Shown here in pieces: positions 17,316-39,854 of a DNA stretch of 64,000 bases. A program made the position numbers and the translations under genes. Every line of letters starts with the position of its first letter. The first letter of the stretch is position 1. This DNA comes from Streptomyces sp. HmicA12 (GTDB lineage Bacteria > Actinomycetota > Actinomycetes > Streptomycetales > Streptomycetaceae). A model generated the notes under the pieces. That model saw only the letters and a program-made list of their open reading frames with translations, had not been told where the DNA came from and made no database searches. The stretch lies in assembly GCF_000373565.1 (NCBI RefSeq), contig NZ_KB891831.1:1330-65329 (forward strand), read 5' to 3'.

Positions 17316-18689
17316 TTGCGCAAGAAACTTCTCGCCGCCCTCGCGATCACCATCGCGACAACGTTGTCAGCCGCAGGCTGCGGCGGCTCCGGGACCGCCG
17401 GCGGCGGCAACACGATCAAGGTCGTGTACTGGCAGCACCTGGACCAGAACGACAAGAAGCAGCAGAAGTTCCTCGGCTCGATGAAGCAGTCCTTCGAAAA
17501 GGCCCACCCCGGCAAGAAGGTCGAGATCGTCCCGGTCACGGCGTCCGAGAACGACTACTACACGAAGATCCAGCTGATGATGCGCTCGCCCTCGACCGCG
17601 CCCGACCTGGTCTACGAGGACACCGCACTGATCAACTCCGACATCACCAGCGGATACCTCAAGCCGATCGACGAGTACGTGGCCAAGTGGTCGGAGTGGG
17701 GCAAGTTCGCCAAGGCCGCCAAGGCCGCCGTCTCCTCGCCCACCGACGGCAAGACGTACGCCGTCCCGGACGACACCGACACCCGGGGTATCTGGTACAA
17801 CCAGGAACTGCTCAAGAAGGCGGGGATCAAGACTCCCTGGCAGCCGAAGACCTGGCAGGACATCCTCGACGTCGCCCGGACGGTCAAGAAGAAGCTGCCG
17901 GGTGTGACGCCGATGAACCTCTACACCGGTCAGGCCGGCGGCGAGCAGTCCACCATGCAGGGCTTCGAGATGCTGCTGTACGGGACCGACGCCGCGGGCG
18001 ACTCCCTGTACGACGCCGAGAGCAAGAAGTGGATCACCGGCTCGCAGGGGTTCAAGGACGCGCTGAAGTTCGTCCACACCGTCTACGGCGAGGACCTGGG
18101 CCTGTCCAGGTCGACCGCGCTCGGTGCCAACGCGGGCACCGAGGTCGGCACGAAGCTGCTTCCCGAGAACAAGCTCGCCATCAACATCGACGGCTCGTGG
18201 ATGGCGAACAACTGGCTGAAGACGGGCCCGCGTCCGTGGCCCGAGTGGACGAAGACGATGGCCTCCGCCGCCATGCCGACGCAGCACGGTCAGGCACCCG
18301 GCAAGGTCAGCATGTCGGGCGGCTGGGCCTGGTCCATCCCGTCGAAGGCCAAGAACCCCGATCTGGCCTGGAAGTTCATGAAGTCGATCAAGAACAAGGC
18401 CCATTCGACGCAGTGGAACATCATCGAGTCGACGACCGCCGTCCGCACCGATGTGGCCGTCGACCCGAAGTACCTCAACGCCACGCCGACCAACAAGTTC
18501 TTCACCGGCCTGGTCAAGTACACCCACTTCCGCCCGGCGCTGCCGAAGTACCCGCAGGTCTCCAACGCCATCACCAAGGCCATGGAGTCCGTCACCACCG
18601 GCCAGAGCTCGGTGGACGAGGCGGCCAAGACGTACGACCAGGAGCTGGCCACGGCCGTCGGCTCCGACAGCACCGCCAAGGGCAACTGA
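17316..18689 (+). CDS. Sugar ABC transporter substrate-binding lipoprotein (CUT1), system 1
   Basis: 457 residues. The lipoprotein signal peptide ends at LSAAGC (Cys ~22), so the mature protein is anchored outside the membrane. It is a cluster-1-type extracellular solute-binding protein: IKVVYWQHLDQ, a long Lys-rich ligand domain, AINIDGSWMANNW, and GGWAWSIPSKAKNPDLAWKFM. CUT1 proteins bind oligosaccharides. The TTG at 17316 is preceded by GGAGGA (17305-17310). The stop overlaps the next permease start (TGATG). The promoter/operator at 17051-17079 drives it. Confidence 0.93.
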   Translation: MRKKLLAALAITIATTLSAAGCGGSGTAGGGNTIKVVYWQHLDQNDKKQQKFLGSMKQSFEKAHPGKKVEIVPVTASENDYYTKIQLMMRSPSTAPDLVYEDTALINSDITSGYLKPIDEYVAKWSEWGKFAKAAKAAVSSPTDGKTYAVPDDTDTRGIWYNQELLKKAGIKTPWQPKTWQDILDVARTVKKKLPGVTPMNLYTGQAGGEQSTMQGFEMLLYGTDAAGDSLYDAESKKWITGSQGFKDALKFVHTVYGEDLGLSRSTALGANAGTEVGTKLLPENKLAINIDGSWMANNWLKTGPRPWPEWTKTMASAAMPTQHGQAPGKVSMSGGWAWSIPSKAKNPDLAWKFMKSIKNKAHSTQWNIIESTTAVRTDVAVDPKYLNATPTNKFFTGLVKYTHFRPALPKYPQVSNAITKAMESVTTGQSSVDEAAKTYDQELATAVGSDSTAKGN

Positions 18690-20570: not shown

Positions 20571-23500
20571 GTGCATTCCGACCGCGACATCGTCGAGCGT
20601 CGGCTGCGGCGCGTACTCGACGAACGCATCCGGCCCGCCGTCCACGCCGTTTCCGTCCCGCTCGAGGTGGGCATCTGGCAGGTGCCGGGCGAGCCCGTCC
20701 CGGTGGCGGAAGGCCTGGCCGCCGATTACCGGCCCACCGAACCGGGAGCGCACTGGGGCCCCGCCTGGACCACCAGCTGGTTCAGGCTCAGCGGCCGCGT
20801 CCCCGAGGAGTGGGCGGGGCGCCGGGTCGAGGCCGTCGTCGACCTCGGCTTCGGCACCACCGAACCGGGCTTCTCCGCGGAGGGCCTCGCGTACCGGCCC
20901 GACGGCACTCCCGTGAAGGCGCTCAACCCGCGCAACATCTGGCTGCCGGTCACCGAACGGGCCACGGGCGGCGAGGAGTTCGTCTGCTACGTCGAAGCCG
21001 CGGCGAACCCCCTCGTCATGCACTCCGGGCCCGAGGACCGCAGTTACGCGATCACCCCGATCGGCGGCCGCGCGCCGTGGCTGGACGATCCGAACGCTTC
21101 GGGCGGCGAGCAGATCTACCGGCTGCGCCGGCTCGACCTGGCCCTCTTCGACGCGGAGGTCTACGAGCTCGTACACGACATGGAAGTGCTCGACCAGCTC
21201 ATGCGCGAGCTGCCCGAGCAGTCGCCGCGCCGCTGGCAGATCCTGCGAACGCTGTCCAACGCCCTGGACGCCGTGGACCTGCAGGACATCAGCGGCACCG
21301 CGACCGCGGCCCGCGAGATCCTCGCGCCCGCCCTGGCGCCTTCCGCCACCACGGGTGAGCACCGCATCTCCGCGGTCGGCCACGCCCACATCGACACGGC
21401 CTGGCTGTGGCCCCTGCGCGAGACGGTGCGCAAGGTCGCCCGCACGGTCTCCAACGTCACCCAACTCATGGACGAACACCCGGAGTTCCGCTTCGTGATG
21501 TCCCAGGCGCAGCAGCTCGCCTGGCTCAAGGAGCACCGCCCCGAGGTGTACGAGCGTGCCCAGGAGAAGGCGAAGACGGGGCAGTTCGTGCCGACCGGCA
21601 GCCTGTGGGTGGAGCCGGACACCAACATCACCGGCGGTGAGGCGCTGGCCCGCCAGTTCATCCACGGCAAGCGGTTCTACCTCGAAGAGTTCGGCGTCGA
21701 GACCGAGGACATGTGGCTGCCGGACACCTTCGGCTACAACGCGGCGATGCCGCAGCTGATGAAGCTGGCGGGCGTGCGCTGGTTCCTGACGCAGAAGATC
21801 TCGTGGAACACCACGAACAAGTTCCCCCACCACACGTTCTGGTGGGAGGGCATCGACGGCACCCGGATCTTCAGCCACTTCCCGCCGGTCGACACGTACA
21901 ACAGCGACCTGTCCGGCGCGGAGGTCGCGCACAGCGTCCGCAACTTCCAGGACAAGGGCGCGGCGAACCGATCGCTCGCCCCGTTCGGCTACGGCGACGG
22001 CGGTGGCGGCCCCACCCGCGAGATGCTCGCGCGCGCCGAGCGCCTCGCCGACCTGGAGGGCTCGGCCCGGGTCGAGATCGAGCGGCCGGGGGACTTCTTC
22101 GCCAAGGCGTTGGAGGAGTACCCGGACGCCCCGGTCTGGGTGGGCGAGCTCTACCTGGAGTTCCACCGCGGCACACTCACCAGCCAGATCGCGACCAAGC
22201 AGGGCAACCGGCGCAGCGAACACCTGCTACGCGAGGCGGAGTTGTGGGCGGCGACGGCCGCGCTCCGCACCGGCGCCCCGTACCCCTACGAGGCACTGGA
22301 CCGGCTGTGGAAGACGGTTCTGCTGCACCAGTTCCACGACATCCTGCCGGGCACGTCGATCGCATGGGTGCACCGGGAGGCGGAGGAGACGTACCGTCAG
22401 GTCGCCACTGAATTGGGAGACTTGATCGCATCGGCGCAGACGGCACTGGCCGGACCGGCCGACGCCGACGGCTCCGAGGTCGTCTTCAACGCCGCTCCGC
22501 ACGCCCGTGGCGGCACGGCGGCCCTGGGCGCCGCGCGGCGCGCCCGGCAGGAGTCGGCCACCGTCGTCCCGATCGCGCGCGACGGCGGCTACGTCCTCGA
22601 CAACGGGCTCGTCCGCATCGTCATCGACGAGCGGGGCCTGGTCACCTCCGCGTACGACGTGGAGGCGGACCGTGAGGCGCTGCCGCCCGGCGCGAGCGCC
22701 AACCTGCTCCAGCTCCACCAGGACTTCCCCAACCAGTGGGACGCCTGGGACGTCGACGCCTTCTACCGCAACACCGTCACGGACCTGACGGACGCGGAGT
22801 CGGTGACCGTGGTGGACGGCGCGGTGAAGGTGACGCGCGCCTTCGGGGCCTCCCGCGTCGAGCAGACCCTGAGCCTGGCGCCGGACGCTCGCCGCCTGGA
22901 CGTCGACACGGTCCTGGACTGGCACGAGACGGAGAAGCTGCTCAAGGTGGCGTTCCCGCTGGACGTGCGGGCGGCGCACTCGACGGCGCAGGTCCCGTTC
23001 GGGCACGTCGAGCGGCCCACGCACACCAACACCAGTTGGGACGCGGCGAAGTTCGAGGTGTGCGCGCACCGCTTCCTGCACGTCGGGGAGCGGGACTGGG
23101 GCGCGGCGGTGGTCAACGACTCGACGTACGGCCACGACGTGACGCGTGACGTGCGGGAGGACGGCGGGACCACCACCACGGTCCGTCTGTCCCTGGCCCG
23201 CGCGCCCCGCTTCCCCGACCCCGACACCGACCAGGGCACCCACCGGCTGCGCTACGCCCTGGTGATCGGGGCGGGTGTCGAGGACGCGATCCGCGAGGGG
23301 TACCACCTCAACCTGCCCGAGCGCGTGGTGCCGGGCTCGGCCGAGGTGGCGCCGCTGGTGTCCGTCGACGCCCCGGCCGTCGTGGTCGAGACGGTCAAGC
23401 TCGCCGACGACCGTTCCGGCGATGTCGTGGTCCGCCTCTACGAGGCCCACGGAGCCCGCGCCACGGCACTGCTCACGCCCGGCTTCCGGATCACGTCGGC

Positions 23501-23633
23501 TACCGCCACCGACCTCCTGGAACGCCCGCGCGCCGCCGACGAGTCGTGCTGTGAAGCAACCGATGACGGGGTCAGGCTGCGGCTGCGCCCGTTCCAGATC
23601 CTGACGGTGCGGCTGGTTCCCGAGCAGGGGTGA
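20571..23633 (+). CDS. GH38 alpha-mannosidase
   Basis: 1020 residues. The N-terminal domain (to ~255) leads into the GH38 catalytic barrel. The zinc site is in GHAHIDTAWLWPLRE (His273, Asp275) and the nucleophile Asp385 is in MWLPDTFGYNAAMPQ, by homology to other GH38 enzymes. The C-terminal beta-sandwich ends with RPFQILTVRLVPE. The overall type resembles cytosolic MAN2C1-like mannosidases. No signal peptide is visible, so it would trim imported oligosaccharides in the cytoplasm. The GTG at 20571 was chosen with an AAAGG site ~7 nt upstream. A hairpin at 23643-23678 follows the stop. Confidence 0.93.
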   Translation: MHSDRDIVERRLRRVLDERIRPAVHAVSVPLEVGIWQVPGEPVPVAEGLAADYRPTEPGAHWGPAWTTSWFRLSGRVPEEWAGRRVEAVVDLGFGTTEPGFSAEGLAYRPDGTPVKALNPRNIWLPVTERATGGEEFVCYVEAAANPLVMHSGPEDRSYAITPIGGRAPWLDDPNASGGEQIYRLRRLDLALFDAEVYELVHDMEVLDQLMRELPEQSPRRWQILRTLSNALDAVDLQDISGTATAAREILAPALAPSATTGEHRISAVGHAHIDTAWLWPLRETVRKVARTVSNVTQLMDEHPEFRFVMSQAQQLAWLKEHRPEVYERAQEKAKTGQFVPTGSLWVEPDTNITGGEALARQFIHGKRFYLEEFGVETEDMWLPDTFGYNAAMPQLMKLAGVRWFLTQKISWNTTNKFPHHTFWWEGIDGTRIFSHFPPVDTYNSDLSGAEVAHSVRNFQDKGAANRSLAPFGYGDGGGGPTREMLARAERLADLEGSARVEIERPGDFFAKALEEYPDAPVWVGELYLEFHRGTLTSQIATKQGNRRSEHLLREAELWAATAALRTGAPYPYEALDRLWKTVLLHQFHDILPGTSIAWVHREAEETYRQVATELGDLIASAQTALAGPADADGSEVVFNAAPHARGGTAALGAARRARQESATVVPIARDGGYVLDNGLVRIVIDERGLVTSAYDVEADREALPPGASANLLQLHQDFPNQWDAWDVDAFYRNTVTDLTDAESVTVVDGAVKVTRAFGASRVEQTLSLAPDARRLDVDTVLDWHETEKLLKVAFPLDVRAAHSTAQVPFGHVERPTHTNTSWDAAKFEVCAHRFLHVGERDWGAAVVNDSTYGHDVTRDVREDGGTTTTVRLSLARAPRFPDPDTDQGTHRLRYALVIGAGVEDAIREGYHLNLPERVVPGSAEVAPLVSVDAPAVVVETVKLADDRSGDVVVRLYEAHGARATALLTPGFRITSATATDLLERPRAADESCCEATDDGVRLRLRPFQILTVRLVPEQG

Positions 23634-23678: not shown

Positions 23679-23753
23679 GCCTACCCGTCGCGCCCTCTTC
23701 ACCGTCGACCCGGCCGATCTCGCCGACGCTGATCCCCCTCCATGGAGACAACG

Positions 23754-25622
23754 ATGTCAACTGTGTCCGACCAGCGATCTCACCGCGACGGGCAGGCCGG
23801 CGGCCTGCCACGCCCGGAGTACCCACGCCCCGGCTTCGTCCGCGAGGACTGGCTCAACCTCAACGGCACCTGGCAGTTCGCCTTCGACCCGAGTGACAGC
23901 GGCCTCGAACGCGGTCTGCTGCACGCCGAGTTGAGCGGCCGGATCACGGTCCCGTTCTGTCCCGAGTCGGAGCTGTCCGGCATCGGCGACACCGACTTCC
24001 ACCGTGCGGTCTGGTACCGGCGCACGGTGCGGATCCCTCAGGAGTGGCGGGGACGCCGTCCCGTACTGCACTTCGGTGCCGTCGACCACGACGCGACGGT
24101 GTGGGTCAACGGCACCGAAGTGGCCCGGCACAGCGGCGGGTTCACGTCCTTCAGCGCCGACCTCGGCGGTGTGGTGGGCGCGGGTGACGAGGCCGTGATC
24201 GTGGTGCGCGCCCGTGACACCTGGGAGGGACCGCAGGCCCGCGGCAAGCAGTCCCGGCTGTACGCCAACCACACCTGCCTGTACACCCGCACCACCGGGA
24301 TCTGGCAGACCGTGTGGCTGGAGCCGGTGGCCGACACCCATCTCAAGCGTCCCCGGATCACCCCCGATCTCGCCGCGAGCTGCTTCCACCTGGAGCTTCC
24401 ACTGGCGGGCGGCCGCACCGGACGGCGCGTTCGCGCACGGCTCGTCGACGCCGCCGGCACGGTGGCCGAGGCCGAGGTGCCGGCGCATCTGAGCGTGGCC
24501 CCGCGGATCGTGCTGCCCGTGCCCGCGGACCGCCGCCGACCGTGGTCGCCGCAGGACCCGCACCTGTACGAGGTCCACATCGACGTGCTGGACGCCGAGG
24601 GAACCGTCGTCGACGCCACGGTCAGCACCACGGGCCTGCGGTCCGTCTCCGTGGACGGAAAGCGGATCCTCATCAACGGCGAGCCGGTCTTCCAGCGGCT
24701 CGTGCTCGACCAGGGCTACTACCCGGACGGCCTGATGACGGCCCCCGACGACGCCGCCCTGATCCGCGACATCGAACTCTCCCTCGCCGCCGGGTTCAAC
24801 GGCGCCCGCCTGCATCAGAAGGTCTTCGAGGAGCGGTTCCTGCACCACGCCGACCGGATGGGCTATCTGGTCTGGGGCGAGTTCGGTGACTGGGGCTCGA
24901 ACGAAGGGCCGCTCAGCGGCGACAACCAGCAGCCCACCGCCGGGTTCGTCACGCAGTGGCTGGAGGCGGTGGAGCGGGACTACAACCACCCGTCCGTCGT
25001 CGGCTGGTGCCCGCTGAACGAGACGCAGCAACTGCTCACCGACCGCCCTTCCACCCTCGACGACGTCACCCGCGGCATGTTCCTGGCCACCAAGGCCGCC
25101 GACACCACCCGCCCGGTTCTGGACGCCTCCGGCTACGCGCACCGGGTACCGGAGACCGACGTCTACGACTCGCACTGCTACGAGCAGGACCCCGAGGCGT
25201 TCCGGGCCCTGATGGCGGGCCTCGACAAGAACCGCCCCTTCGTGAACCCCGAGGACAACCCGGACGCCGGGATCTGGTCCACCCCCTACGCCGGGCAGCC
25301 CTACTTCTGCAGCGAGTTCGGCGGCATCTGGTGGAATCCGGACGACGCCGTACCCGACGACACGGACCGCAGCACCTCCTGGGGCTACGGCGAACGCCCC
25401 CGCGGCGAGGAGGAGTTCCACCACCGCTTCGCCGGCCTGACCGGCGTCCTGCTCGACGACCCGAACATGTTCGGCTACTGCTACACGCAGCTCACCGACG
25501 TGTTCCAGGAGCAGAACGGCATCTACCGGTTCGACCGCTCGCGGAAGCTGGACGTGGACCGGGTACGGCGGGCCCAGGAGCGCCCGGCCGCCTTCGAGAC
25601 CTCGCCCGTCGGGGAGGTCTGA
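23754..25622 (+). CDS. GH2-family glycosidase, copy 1
   Basis: 622 residues. The sugar-binding N-terminal domain is followed by the Ig-like domain and a TIM barrel. The likely acid/base is Glu423 (GWCPLNETQQ) and the nucleophile Glu521 (FCSEFGGIWW), inferred from GH2 family positions. No signal peptide is visible. GH2 includes beta-mannosidases, beta-galactosidases and beta-glucuronidases; the next-door alpha-mannosidase favours a mannose-linked substrate, but this is an inference. The ATG at 23754 has GGAG upstream. A second GH2 protein with the same motifs is at 36701-38563. The stop overlaps the start of the next binding protein. Confidence 0.88.
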   Translation: MSTVSDQRSHRDGQAGGLPRPEYPRPGFVREDWLNLNGTWQFAFDPSDSGLERGLLHAELSGRITVPFCPESELSGIGDTDFHRAVWYRRTVRIPQEWRGRRPVLHFGAVDHDATVWVNGTEVARHSGGFTSFSADLGGVVGAGDEAVIVVRARDTWEGPQARGKQSRLYANHTCLYTRTTGIWQTVWLEPVADTHLKRPRITPDLAASCFHLELPLAGGRTGRRVRARLVDAAGTVAEAEVPAHLSVAPRIVLPVPADRRRPWSPQDPHLYEVHIDVLDAEGTVVDATVSTTGLRSVSVDGKRILINGEPVFQRLVLDQGYYPDGLMTAPDDAALIRDIELSLAAGFNGARLHQKVFEERFLHHADRMGYLVWGEFGDWGSNEGPLSGDNQQPTAGFVTQWLEAVERDYNHPSVVGWCPLNETQQLLTDRPSTLDDVTRGMFLATKAADTTRPVLDASGYAHRVPETDVYDSHCYEQDPEAFRALMAGLDKNRPFVNPEDNPDAGIWSTPYAGQPYFCSEFGGIWWNPDDAVPDDTDRSTSWGYGERPRGEEEFHHRFAGLTGVLLDDPNMFGYCYTQLTDVFQEQNGIYRFDRSRKLDVDRVRRAQERPAAFETSPVGEV

Positions 25623-34345: not shown

Positions 34346-34397
34346 GTGCTGTCCCTTCACCGATCCGGCCTGCCCGAATCGCTTCGACCGCTACTTT

Positions 34398-34413
34398 TTA
34401 CAGCGCTGAAAAG
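34398..34413. promoter_or_regulatory. LacI-type operator, site 1
   Basis: TTTACAGCGCTGAAAA, one base away from the palindrome TTTACAGCGCTGTAAA. It lies between the divergent GH38 and GxGYxYP genes, 52 bp from the GH38 start. The same motif occurs before GH2 copy 2 and before the third importer. Confidence 0.7.
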
Positions 34414-34636
34414 CCAAGTCCCGCGCAACGTAGGCGACTTGCTCGCACGCAGTCAACACGTTCGGCGGCACCGATGCGCGGCGCGGCGAAGATCGGCCAA
34501 AGATCGACACCAGCACCGGAAGTTTGCGCGCACCCCATGGACAACGGCCCGTCACCTGATTACGTTCGCCGACGGCCGACAACGATGTCAGAGCTGTCGG
34601 GCTCAAGAGCCGCTGAACGAGGAGCCGTGAACGTCG

Positions 34637-36646
34637 ATGGTGACACGAAGAAACCTCCTGCAGACCGGTGGAGCGGCCCTGGCCGCCGGGGCCTTCGGGA
34701 TCTCCCTGCCGGGCCGGGCCTCGGCCGCCGAGCGCACCTCGGCGGCCCGGCTGCTCCCGTCCTTCGGCCGCCCGACCCGGCTCGACGTCGCCGACGTCGG
34801 CGCCCTGAACGGTGACGACCAGCTTCTGCTGACGACCCTCCAGGGGACGGTGAACCGCGGCGGACCGCGCCTGTACTTCAACTTCGACGACGGCGCGGCG
34901 GACCGCCGGTGGCTGTCGAGCACCGGCGCGTCGATCACCCGTCACGACAACGCCCTTGATCTCCTGGGCCGTTACCGTGACCGGGTGCGGGGCGCGATCC
35001 TGGTCGATCCCGATGTGCCCGACTCCGTGAACGTCGCCACCACGCTCGCCGGGCTCAAGGACGGGGTCGCCGCGACCGCCGAACAGGCCGACGCCCACGG
35101 CCTCAAGACCCTGATGGACCTGCGCGGCCGGTTCGACCCCGCCGACGTCGAGGGTGTCTACCGCTGGCAGCTCGACCAGCTCTTCCCGCACTGCAGCCAT
35201 GCGCTGCTGGCCGGCCTGCCACCGACCCGGACCGTCAGCGTGAGCGGCGTCACATGGCGGGAGGTGGCCCGCGAGACCGAACGGATCCGCGACATCTCCA
35301 ACCGCAAGGTGCGCACGCTCGACCTGAGCCCCGAACTGGGCGGTGACAACGATGTCTACGTGCGCTTCCAGGACTCCTTCGGCGACGACGGGTGGGGTGC
35401 GTCCGTCGGATCCGTCAAGGTCACGGCGGACGGCAAGGAGATCGTCGCCTTCACGCCCGGCACGGACGCCGAGAAGCCGTATCTGTTCGACGGTCTCAAC
35501 TCCTCCCTCGGCGACAAGTCGAACCGCTTCGCCGACGGCGGCGGCTACTTCGTCTATCACTTCAAGGCCCCGGCGGGCACCAAGAAACTCACGGTCGACG
35601 TCGACCTGTGGAACCAGTTCCTGGTGACCGCCACCGCCACGGCGCCCACCCGCGTCGAGCCCTTCCCCTACTTCCGGGACTACGTGGTGGCGAGCCGGGC
35701 CATGGTGCTGTGGCTCCCGCCGTCCGGCGACACCGGCAAGCTGCTCGACGAGACCCTCACGCGCCTCGCGCCCACGACCCCGTACACCGGCTGGTTCCCC
35801 AACGACGTGGCCGGCGAGTGGGGCGGAGTGGACCGTGCCTCGCAGCACGGTGTGGAGGTCGTCGCCGCCGACTTCTACATGAACGGCACCGTGCACGCCG
35901 GTGTCCCCGCCAAGATCTCCGATCGGGTGCCGAAGCGGCCGAGGAGCACGCTGCGCAACCGGGTGTACGTCACGTTCACCGTCGGCGAGGGCGACAACAT
36001 CCAGTACTGCCAGCGCCGGATGCGCGACATCTGGGACGACCCCAAGCGCGGAGAGGTGCCGGTCAACTGGACGGTCAGCCCGCTGCTCGCCGACATCGGG
36101 CCGGCCCAACTCGCTTACTACCAGCGCACGGCCACCGCCAACGACCTGCTCGTCTGCGGCCCTTCCGGCGCGGGGTACACGTACCCGGAGTCGTGGCCGA
36201 AGGACGCGCTGGACGCGTACACCGCGCTGACGGGACGCTATATGCGCCGCACGGGCATGGACCTCGCGTACGCCTACAACCCGCGCAACGCCGCCAACGA
36301 CGGCTGGATACCGTTCGACGAGCGCGTCATGGCGTCCTACCGGAAGAACACACCGCTGCGGGGCGTCATCCAGTCCTGGGAGACCGGCGATCTGCAGGCT
36401 CGCCCGGCCGGTATCCCGGTCATCGGCAACTTCTATCCGCAGGGCAAGGGCGCGGACTTCCGCGACGCGCTGCTGGAGCTCGTCGAGGGGCGCGACACCG
36501 ACCGGCCGATGTTCGTGGCCGCCGCGATCAACGCGTGGAGCTGGACCCCGAGCGACATCGCCGATCTGGCGAAGCTGCTGGACGATCCGTTCGAGGTCGT
36601 GCGCGGTGACGTGTTCTTCGACCTGCTCGACCGCAGCTACGACTGA
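34637..36646 (+). CDS. GxGYxYP-family putative glycoside hydrolase, Tat-secreted
   Basis: 669 residues. The N-terminus RRNLLQTGGAALAAGAFG is a twin-arginine signal with a cleavage site near residue 31. The mature protein holds the family motif GAGYTYP (residues 511-517, within LLVCGPSGAGYTYPESW) and an N-terminal domain before it. GxGYxYP proteins are predicted carbohydrate-active enzymes of unknown activity. The ATG at 34637 follows GAGGAG. It is divergent from the GH38 gene and shares its operator region. Being exported, it could make the first cut that feeds the importers. Confidence 0.85.
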   Translation: MVTRRNLLQTGGAALAAGAFGISLPGRASAAERTSAARLLPSFGRPTRLDVADVGALNGDDQLLLTTLQGTVNRGGPRLYFNFDDGAADRRWLSSTGASITRHDNALDLLGRYRDRVRGAILVDPDVPDSVNVATTLAGLKDGVAATAEQADAHGLKTLMDLRGRFDPADVEGVYRWQLDQLFPHCSHALLAGLPPTRTVSVSGVTWREVARETERIRDISNRKVRTLDLSPELGGDNDVYVRFQDSFGDDGWGASVGSVKVTADGKEIVAFTPGTDAEKPYLFDGLNSSLGDKSNRFADGGGYFVYHFKAPAGTKKLTVDVDLWNQFLVTATATAPTRVEPFPYFRDYVVASRAMVLWLPPSGDTGKLLDETLTRLAPTTPYTGWFPNDVAGEWGGVDRASQHGVEVVAADFYMNGTVHAGVPAKISDRVPKRPRSTLRNRVYVTFTVGEGDNIQYCQRRMRDIWDDPKRGEVPVNWTVSPLLADIGPAQLAYYQRTATANDLLVCGPSGAGYTYPESWPKDALDAYTALTGRYMRRTGMDLAYAYNPRNAANDGWIPFDERVMASYRKNTPLRGVIQSWETGDLQARPAGIPVIGNFYPQGKGADFRDALLELVEGRDTDRPMFVAAAINAWSWTPSDIADLAKLLDDPFEVVRGDVFFDLLDRSYD

Positions 36647-36700: not shown

Positions 36701-38563
36701 TCAGCGGCCGTCCCCCTCGATGGCGGCGGGCCTGAGCTGGGCGGCGCGGACGCGGGACACGTCGAGCTTCTCGGAACGGTCGAAGCGGTAGATGCCGTTC
36801 TGCTCCTGGAACACGTCGGTCAGCTGCGTGTAGCAGTACCCGAACATGTCCGGGTCGTCCAGGAGCACCCCGGTGAGACCGGCGAAGCGGTGGTGGAACT
36901 CCGCCTCGTCGCGGGGCCGTTGACCGTACCCCCACGAGACGTCGCGGTCCTCGCCCGCGGCCTGTACCTCGTCGGGGTTCCACCAGATGCCGCCGAACTC
37001 GCTGCAGAAATAGGGCTGTCCGCGGTAGGGAACGGACCAGGTGGCGTCCGGTGCCTCGTCCTGCGGGTTGACGAACGGCTTGTCCTCGGCGAGGCCGCTC
37101 ATCAACTTGCCGAAGATTTCCGGGTTCTGCTCGTAGCAGTGCGAGTCGTAGATGTCCGTCTCCGGTACGCGGTGCGCGTAGCCGGAGGTGTCGAGGACGG
37201 GGCGTGTGGTGTCGGCGGCCTTGGTGGCGAGGAACATCGCCCGGGTGACGTCGTCGAGGACGCTCTGCCGGTCCGAGAGTCTCTGGCGAGTCTCGTTGAG
37301 CGGGCACCAGCCGATGATCGACGGGTGGGAGTAGTCGCGTTCGACGGCCTCCAGCCACTGCGCCACGAAGCCGCTGGTCGGCTGCTGGTTGTCCGTGCTC
37401 ACGGGTCCCGTGCTCGCGCCCCAGTCGCCGAACTCACCCCATACGAGGTAGCCGAGGCGGTCGGCGTGGTGCAGGAAGCGCTCCTCGAAGACCTTCTGGT
37501 GCAGGCGGGCTCCGTTGAAGCCCGCGGCGAGGGAGAGTTCGATGTCGCGGACGAGCGCGGCGTCGTCGGGGGCCGTCATCAGGCCGTCCGGGTACCAGCC
37601 CTGGTCCAGGACGAGGCGCTGGAAGACCGGCTCGCCGTTGAGCAGGACCCGCTTGCCGTCGACGGTGACCGAGCGCAGTCCCGCCGTGCACACCGCCGCG
37701 TCGACGACCACGCCGGAGGCGTCCACGACGTCGAGGTGGATCTCGTACAGGTGCGGGTCCCGCGGTGACCAACTCCTGCGCCGGTCCTGCGGAACGGGCA
37801 GGACCAGGCGTGGTGCGAGGTCGAGGTGGGCGGCGACCGAGGCCTCGGCCACGGTGCCCTGTGCGTCGGTGAGGCGGGCACGGACGTGGTGGCCGGTCCG
37901 GCTTCCGGACAGCGGGAGTTCGAGGTGGAAGCAGCCCGCGGCCAGGTCGGGGGTGATGCGGGGGCGTCCGAGGTGGGTGTCGGCCACCGGTTCCATCCAG
38001 ACCGTCTGCCAGATCCCTGTCGTCCGGGTGTACAGGCAGCTGTAGTTGGCGTAGTGGTCCGACTGCTTGCCGCGCGCCTGCGGGCCGGTGGCGCTGTCCC
38101 GGGCGCGTACCACGATCGTGGCGTCCTCGCCGGGCCGCACCACCTCGCCCAGATCGGCGCTGAACGAGGTGAAACCGCCGCTGTGCCGAGCCACTTCGTG
38201 CCCGTCGACCCACACCGTCGCGTCGTGGTCCACGGCACCGAAGTGCAGCACGGGCCTGCGCCCGGCCCACTCGGCGGGCACCCGCACGGTGCGCCGGTAC
38301 CAGACGGCGGCGTGGAAGTCCGTGTCGCCGATGCCGGAGAGCTCCGACTCCGGGCAGAACGGGACGGTGATCCGGTCGGGCAACTCGGCGTCCACCAGGC
38401 CGCGTTCGAGGCCACTGTCGCCGGGATCCCGGGCGAACTGCCACGAGCCGTTGAGGTTGAGCCAGTCCGCGCGGACGAATCCGGGGCGCGGGTACTCCGG
38501 GCGGGGAAGGTCCTGCGCGGCGGTCGGGTCGCCGGGCACGGGCTGCGGACTGGACGAGGCCAT
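36701..38563 (-). CDS. GH2-family glycosidase, copy 2
   Basis: 620 residues, closely matching GH2 copy 1 along its whole length. Shared blocks include LPRPEYPRPGFVRADWLNLN (copy 1 has REDW), DRITVPFCPESELSGIGDTDF and the barrel. The likely catalytic residues are in GWCPLNETRQ and FCSEFGGIWW. There is no signal peptide, so it is cytoplasmic. Unlike copy 1, it sits behind a LacI-type operator (38630-38645) and next to lacI. Two isozymes under different control could let the cell use related substrates under different signals. The ATG at 38563 is used. Confidence 0.88.
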   Translation of the reverse strand: MASSSPQPVPGDPTAAQDLPRPEYPRPGFVRADWLNLNGSWQFARDPGDSGLERGLVDAELPDRITVPFCPESELSGIGDTDFHAAVWYRRTVRVPAEWAGRRPVLHFGAVDHDATVWVDGHEVARHSGGFTSFSADLGEVVRPGEDATIVVRARDSATGPQARGKQSDHYANYSCLYTRTTGIWQTVWMEPVADTHLGRPRITPDLAAGCFHLELPLSGSRTGHHVRARLTDAQGTVAEASVAAHLDLAPRLVLPVPQDRRRSWSPRDPHLYEIHLDVVDASGVVVDAAVCTAGLRSVTVDGKRVLLNGEPVFQRLVLDQGWYPDGLMTAPDDAALVRDIELSLAAGFNGARLHQKVFEERFLHHADRLGYLVWGEFGDWGASTGPVSTDNQQPTSGFVAQWLEAVERDYSHPSIIGWCPLNETRQRLSDRQSVLDDVTRAMFLATKAADTTRPVLDTSGYAHRVPETDIYDSHCYEQNPEIFGKLMSGLAEDKPFVNPQDEAPDATWSVPYRGQPYFCSEFGGIWWNPDEVQAAGEDRDVSWGYGQRPRDEAEFHHRFAGLTGVLLDDPDMFGYCYTQLTDVFQEQNGIYRFDRSEKLDVSRVRAAQLRPAAIEGDGR

Positions 38564-38629: not shown

Positions 38630-38645
38630 TTTACACCGCTGTAAA
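38630..38645. promoter_or_regulatory. LacI-type operator, site 2
   Basis: TTTACACCGCTGTAAA, one base from a perfect palindrome. It lies between lacI and GH2 copy 2, 67 bp before the GH2 start. Confidence 0.75.
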
Positions 38646-39824: not shown

Positions 39825-39854
39825 TTGACACTCAAATTTACAGCGCTGTAAGTT
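39825..39854 (+). promoter_or_regulatory. Promoter of the third importer with LacI-type operator (site 3)
   Basis: TTGACA (39825-39830), 18 bases, TAAGTT (39849-39854). The operator TTTACAGCGCTGTAAG (39837-39852) fills the spacer and overlaps the -10, the classic place for repression. Confidence 0.75.

Follow-up and report, generated by a model that had tools for sequence, protein, structure and literature searches.

A Tat-signal GxGYxYP protein of Streptomyces, probably a secreted glycosidase of a LacI-controlled GH92 alpha-mannoside regulon

The GxGYxYP protein encoded in the window (the whole 64,000-nt stretch of Streptomyces sp. HmicA12 DNA that was analysed) is probably a Tat-exported, secreted glycosidase acting on alpha-mannose-rich glycans, and its gene would belong to a LacI-controlled regulon of GH92 alpha-mannosidases. 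A role in the breakdown of mannose-rich glycans is most likely because the same repressor-type site stands before this gene and before four of the genome's five GH92 genes. The initial annotation had suggested such a role, and at the level of sequence it is supported by this genome-wide operator, common to GxGYxYP and the GH92 exo-alpha-mannosidases. The relevant features are listed in Table 1.

Table 1. Coordinates (window positions), strand and basis of the features discussed.
Feature	Position	Strand	Basis or remark
Weak candidate site CGACAACGTTGTCA	17356..17369	.	Inside SBP1 signal-peptide coding region
GH38a, Ams1-type GH38	20571..23633	+	7ufs, E = 3.7e-243 over residues 11-1015
Weak candidate site AGACAACGATGTCA	23746..23759	.	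Overlaps apparent RBS and start of GH2a
DUF7158/SurA_N-like protein, 189 aa, overlaps GH38b stop codon	29706..30275	-	Conserved 3' of GH38b in G065, G335, G420
GH38b, large alpha-mannosidase-type protein, 1362 aa	30272..34360	-	PF01074, 193 bits; without signal peptide
Second operator TTTACAGCGCTGAAAA (predicted), by GH38 start	34397..34412	.	Three sites genome-wide, all in cluster
Putative promoter TGGACA-N17-TACGTT, directly 5' of 34577 operator	34534..34566 (approximate)	+	Recurs in most orthologs; by eye
Operator CGACAACGATGTCA of GxGYxYP gene (predicted)	34577..34590	.	46 bp before start; 17/17 loci
GxGYxYP protein, 669 aa	34637..36646	+	ATG start; Pfam domains, 3sgg match, translation; Tat signal residues 1-30
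Clade-specific insert, residues about 225-335	35309..35641	+	Predicted all-beta sandwich; AF2
TTTACAGCGCTGAAAA-type palindrome 5' of GH2 gene (36701-38563)	38630..38645	.	Pattern scan
LacI regulator, presumed reader of TTTACAGCGCTGTAAA	38687..39703	-	PF00356; site adjoins own gene
TTTACAGCGCTGAAAA-type palindrome between divergent LacI gene and SBP-ABC-GH31 genes	39837..39852	.	Pattern scan

Membership of the GxGYxYP family, as initially annotated, is well founded. In the Pfam search, the C-terminal barrel domain PF14323 scored 217.6 bits against a cut-off of 27, the three N-terminal domains of the family (PF16216, PF20957 and PF20958) all exceeded their cut-offs, and residues 511-517 (GAGYTYP) match the sequence motif. 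The sole relative returned by a PDB search was 3sgg (BT2193 of B. thetaiotaomicron), the only solved member of the family (E = 1.7e-25, or 9.6e-31 with a profile). The open-licence literature reports no activity for any member, in agreement with the same annotation, which had also proposed a Tat signal. The N-terminus does read as a twin-arginine signal (MVTRRNLLQTGGAALAAG...RASA-A); judged by eye, the stretch MVTRRNLLQTGGAALAAGAFGISLPGRASAAE carries a twin-arginine motif (TRRNLL), a hydrophobic stretch and an AxA site (RASA-A). An MV(S/T)RR start is common to all nine other complete sequences of alignment A1, and the signal predicts that the protein is probably Tat-exported. The family is rare in these bacteria: the gene is the only PF14323 gene in its own 9.16-Mb genome, full-length copies were found in 6 of 150 sampled Streptomyces genomes, and the single positive among the 396 genomes of a phylum sample was its own genome.

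The best-supported conclusion about the protein itself is that it belongs to an actinobacterial subfamily of its own, set apart by an additional beta-sandwich domain and by a Glu where one of the proposed catalytic Asp residues would be expected. Residues were mapped from the 3sgg alignment and the BT2193 paper (PMC4071793), and Glu272, Asp331, Asp333 and Asn334 of BT2193 correspond to E394, E451, D453 and N454; these four, and G511, G513, Y514 and Y516 of the family-defining motif, do not vary among the 12 A1 orthologs. The catalytic triad proposed for BT2193 (Glu272/Asp331/Asp333) reads Glu, Glu, Asp in the window protein. The Glu at the second position extends across the whole window clade, Kribbella included, while Asp is retained in L015 and L016, two less closely related actinobacterial members; all three positions are acidic in 18 of 18 window-clade sequences. 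By analogy with the BT2193 proposal, the cleft between the domains would be the site of hydrolysis, E394 serving as the acid and E451/D453 as the base. The insert of about 110 residues (225-335) is kept in all 12 close orthologs and is absent from L015 and L016. The AF2 model of the whole protein was poor (pLDDT 52), and that of the insert alone is a beta-sandwich (pLDDT 73, pTM 0.72), which among PDB structures most closely resembles a blood-group-glycan-active enzyme from Akkermansia muciniphila (Z = 10.2, rmsd 3.3 over 117). Foldseek also matched the Akkermansia enzyme (E = 1.6e-3), the other matches being general beta-sandwiches, and searches of Pfam and the PDB with the insert alone found no sequence relatives. 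The modelled fold is at most suggestive of a carbohydrate-enzyme accessory domain.

Two different palindromes lie between the GxGYxYP gene and the divergently oriented gene for the giant GH38 protein, GH38b. The divergent arrangement, the presumably intracellular nature of the GH38 protein (its translation starts without a signal peptide) and the presence of a palindrome, TTTACAGCGCTGAAAA, between the genes were all correctly described in the initial annotation. What did not survive was the claim that the two genes share an operator. When upstream regions were aligned, a palindrome of the form TGACAACGATGTCA was found in each of the 17 GxGYxYP loci, 20-46 bp upstream of the start codon; the element at 34577 thus recurs in all 16 other orthologs, including that of Kribbella (59% identity), in neighbourhoods that are mostly different. 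About 36 bp lie between the 34397 palindrome and the GH38 start, and 224 bp between it and the GxGYxYP start; the upstream regions of the other 16 orthologs contain no match to it with fewer than three mismatches. A common operator at 34397 was rejected on the grounds of this distance, the missing counterparts and the gene's own operator at 34577; since the 34577 operator is conserved and the 34397 palindrome unmatched before the other orthologs, the latter most probably goes with GH38b. The pattern TTTNCAGCGCTGNAAA (up to one mismatch) occurs at only three places in 9.16 Mb, at 34397, 38630 and 39837, all within this cluster, and forms a genome-unique LacI-type operator set that links GH38b, a GH2 enzyme, the LacI gene and the SBP-ABC-GH31 group. 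A further copy of the GxGYxYP operator motif, TGACAACGATGTCT, lies inside the GxGYxYP gene itself (35344-35357), with counterparts in G123, G420 and L049; it is probably not an operator, because it falls within codons.

The operator of the GxGYxYP gene connects it to mannosidase genes elsewhere in the genome. The motif TGACAWCGWTGTCA was defined from GxGYxYP upstream regions alone and then scanned at up to one mismatch, with the reversed motif as control. It has 25 sites in the window's own genome against none for the control, although about half of these lie inside genes and may represent coding chance; 41 Streptomyces genomes have 2-25 sites each, and the controls gave none save one and three in two genomes. 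The four GH92 genes carry the motif 16, 25, 26 and 72 bp before their corrected starts, and in the fifth the motif is intragenic. With a uniform model, at least four of five GH92 genes would have a site by chance with a probability of about 3e-14. Among the proteins under this operator are GH92 enzymes with apparent signal peptides. The other promoter sites include those ahead of two gene copies for a Tat-type protein with F5/8C domains, and one that separates a LacI gene from a ROK kinase gene (L089). The genomes G123 and G209 have the same families under the motif, namely GH92, the LacI/ROK pair, the F5/8C protein and a ThuA protein. Loci from further genomes of the genus sample were selected for a site with identical letters, and can thus tell that the association recurs but not how often; the site accompanies the LacI/ROK pair at each of the nine loci read for this pair (L128, L129, L130, L131, L133, L134, L136, L138 and L140), and a GH92 gene of the L100 type at five loci. 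The conserved position of the autoregulatory site makes it likely that the GxGYxYP operator is read by the L089-type LacI protein.

Several other loci with the motif deserve mention. The two F5/8C genes lie in apparently identical inverted copies (L090 and L091, on G000:C19 near 28000 and 51650), each with a GH2 gene, and both have the motif 18-19 bp upstream. ThuA/GSDH genes carry motif copies at or near their starts in three genomes (L098:675-3017, L105 and L119), an unexpected possible addition to the regulon. At L050, the GxGYxYP gene is divergent from a GH47 alpha-mannosidase gene that has its own motif copy; a search for GH47 in ten other GxGYxYP genomes gave no match anywhere. Within the window, the sites at 17356 and 23746 were downgraded as promoter operators because the first falls within codons for the SBP1 signal peptide and the second overlaps the start of GH2a.

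The proximity of GH38b raises the alternative, which we consider unlikely, that the GxGYxYP protein carries out the first, extracellular step of a giant-GH38 pathway and is dedicated to it, under a common 34397 operator. The two genes adjoin in four of 17 loci (the window, G065, G335 and G420), with at least two changes or origins on the protein tree. In G065 and G335, GH38b lies towards the end of an SBP-permease-permease-GH38b-DUF7158 operon that neighbours ROK and GxGYxYP, and the ROK regulator gene is co-oriented and directly 5' of GxGYxYP. A genus search with a 412-aa fragment as query detected a close GH38b (at least 89% identity) in 2 of 150 Streptomyces genomes, both with GxGYxYP, so that the subtype is confined to GxGYxYP genomes in this sample (formal chance 0.0013, or 0.034 with the window's own genome set aside). 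Yet four of the six GxGYxYP genomes in the sample lack the close subtype, and the nearest ortholog (L049, 88-89%) has neither GH38b nor any of the window's neighbours within 10 kb; for this reason the protein is not dedicated to GH38b. The separate operators described above also argue against the shared control that such a pathway assumes. The tie to GH38 that was originally proposed therefore stands as an adjacency seen in four genomes, with at least two origins, and fails where the subtype is missing: the link is real and recurrent but optional. The DUF7158/SurA_N-like gene follows GH38b in all four genomes that have GH38b, and possibly specifies a dedicated chaperone without a signal peptide. 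A second giant-GH38 subtype (L055-L062), about 68% identical over the catalytic part, is found in about 20 of the 150 Streptomyces genomes, with no GxGYxYP match there.

The points against the mannosidase account include the Glu at the D331 position of the proposed BT2193 triad, and the D-mannonate dehydratase genes that adjoin six orthologs. The latter suggest that the protein could act on another glycan, for example one containing uronic or aldonic acids, with the mannosidase operator reflecting broader co-regulation. The neighbouring gene is a ManD equivalog (682 bits, cut-off 550), the six cases have at least two origins and recurrent ABC neighbours, and a sulfatase gene adjoins the G123 ortholog; however, the ManD gene can be as far as 0.8 kb from GxGYxYP and has no TGACAWCGWTGTCA site (up to one mismatch) upstream in any of the six loci, and we regard this reading as improbable, to about the same degree as a dedicated GH38 pathway. 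Most of the ManD-adjacent loci (L026/L027, L024/L025, L036/L037, L040, L034 and L047) also have ABC and GntR genes. Somewhat less probable again is that the protein is a secreted, non-catalytic glycan-binding protein that uses its insert and cleft to keep mannan in place for GH92 action. The predicted beta-sandwich insert and a family without demonstrated catalysis would fit such a function, but the acidic residues at all three proposed catalytic positions, kept throughout the 18 clade sequences, are not what it would lead one to expect.

On the favoured interpretation, that of a secreted glycosidase in the mannoside regulon, the LacI-family repressor, autoregulated beside a ROK sugar kinase, would bind TGACAACGWTGTCA directly 3' of the -10 box, and its relief by mannosides would induce GxGYxYP together with the GH92 exo-alpha-mannosidases. 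The protein would then act outside the cell on alpha-mannose-rich polymers, which we infer to be fungal mannan or high-mannose N-glycan. The products may be imported by ABC systems and finished by cytosolic GH38 enzymes, in some strains including the GH38 divergent from GxGYxYP. A more far-reaching proposal, which we put forward tentatively and with the odds against it, is that GxGYxYP represents a new family of endo-acting alpha-mannan/N-glycan hydrolases, and that the actinobacterial subfamily (Glu at the Asp331 position, beta-sandwich) is the secreted, repressor-controlled partner of GH92 in an undescribed, genus-wide Streptomyces mannoside regulon. Since 2014, GxGYxYP has ranked as an orphan among putative glycosidase families, and it is over-represented in gut metagenomes. 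A Tat-signal member tied by sequence to GH92 leaves fewer substrates to consider, and offers a genetic handle in the form of one repressor and one operator. The candidate alpha-mannoside regulon, if genus-wide in Streptomyces, would be relevant to fungal cell-wall turnover in soil.

Compared with BT2193 (3sgg; PF14323/PF16216), the window protein has the four Pfam domains, the GAGYTYP motif and the Glu/Asp/Asn cleft residues in common, and differs by the added insert and by the Glu at the Asp331 position. The regulatory arrangement resembles the LacI-family sugar regulons described in PMC4052901, which include ManR for mannosides, in its central-CG palindrome, autoregulated LacI gene, and sugar kinase and GH targets, whereas for the TGACAACGTTGTCA operator no published description in Streptomyces was found in the open-licence literature. 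A mannan link for the GxGYxYP family has already been proposed from Bacteroides, and GxGYxYP genes of Bacteroides and Caldithrix occur in alpha-mannan polysaccharide utilization loci (PULs) or beside GH92, GH38 and ROK genes (PMC4071793). Because the mannan pathway agrees with this earlier context evidence, it is not itself new; the regulon is new in the present analysis, as are the second operator and the features of the subfamily. The Streptomyces genes share with PUL 69 of B. thetaiotaomicron, which is alpha-mannan responsive, and with Caldithrix abyssi (PMC4071793) the linkage to GH92/GH38 alpha-mannosidases and ROK genes, but in Streptomyces this link takes the form of a dispersed regulon with LacI-type operators rather than that of a single polysaccharide utilization locus.
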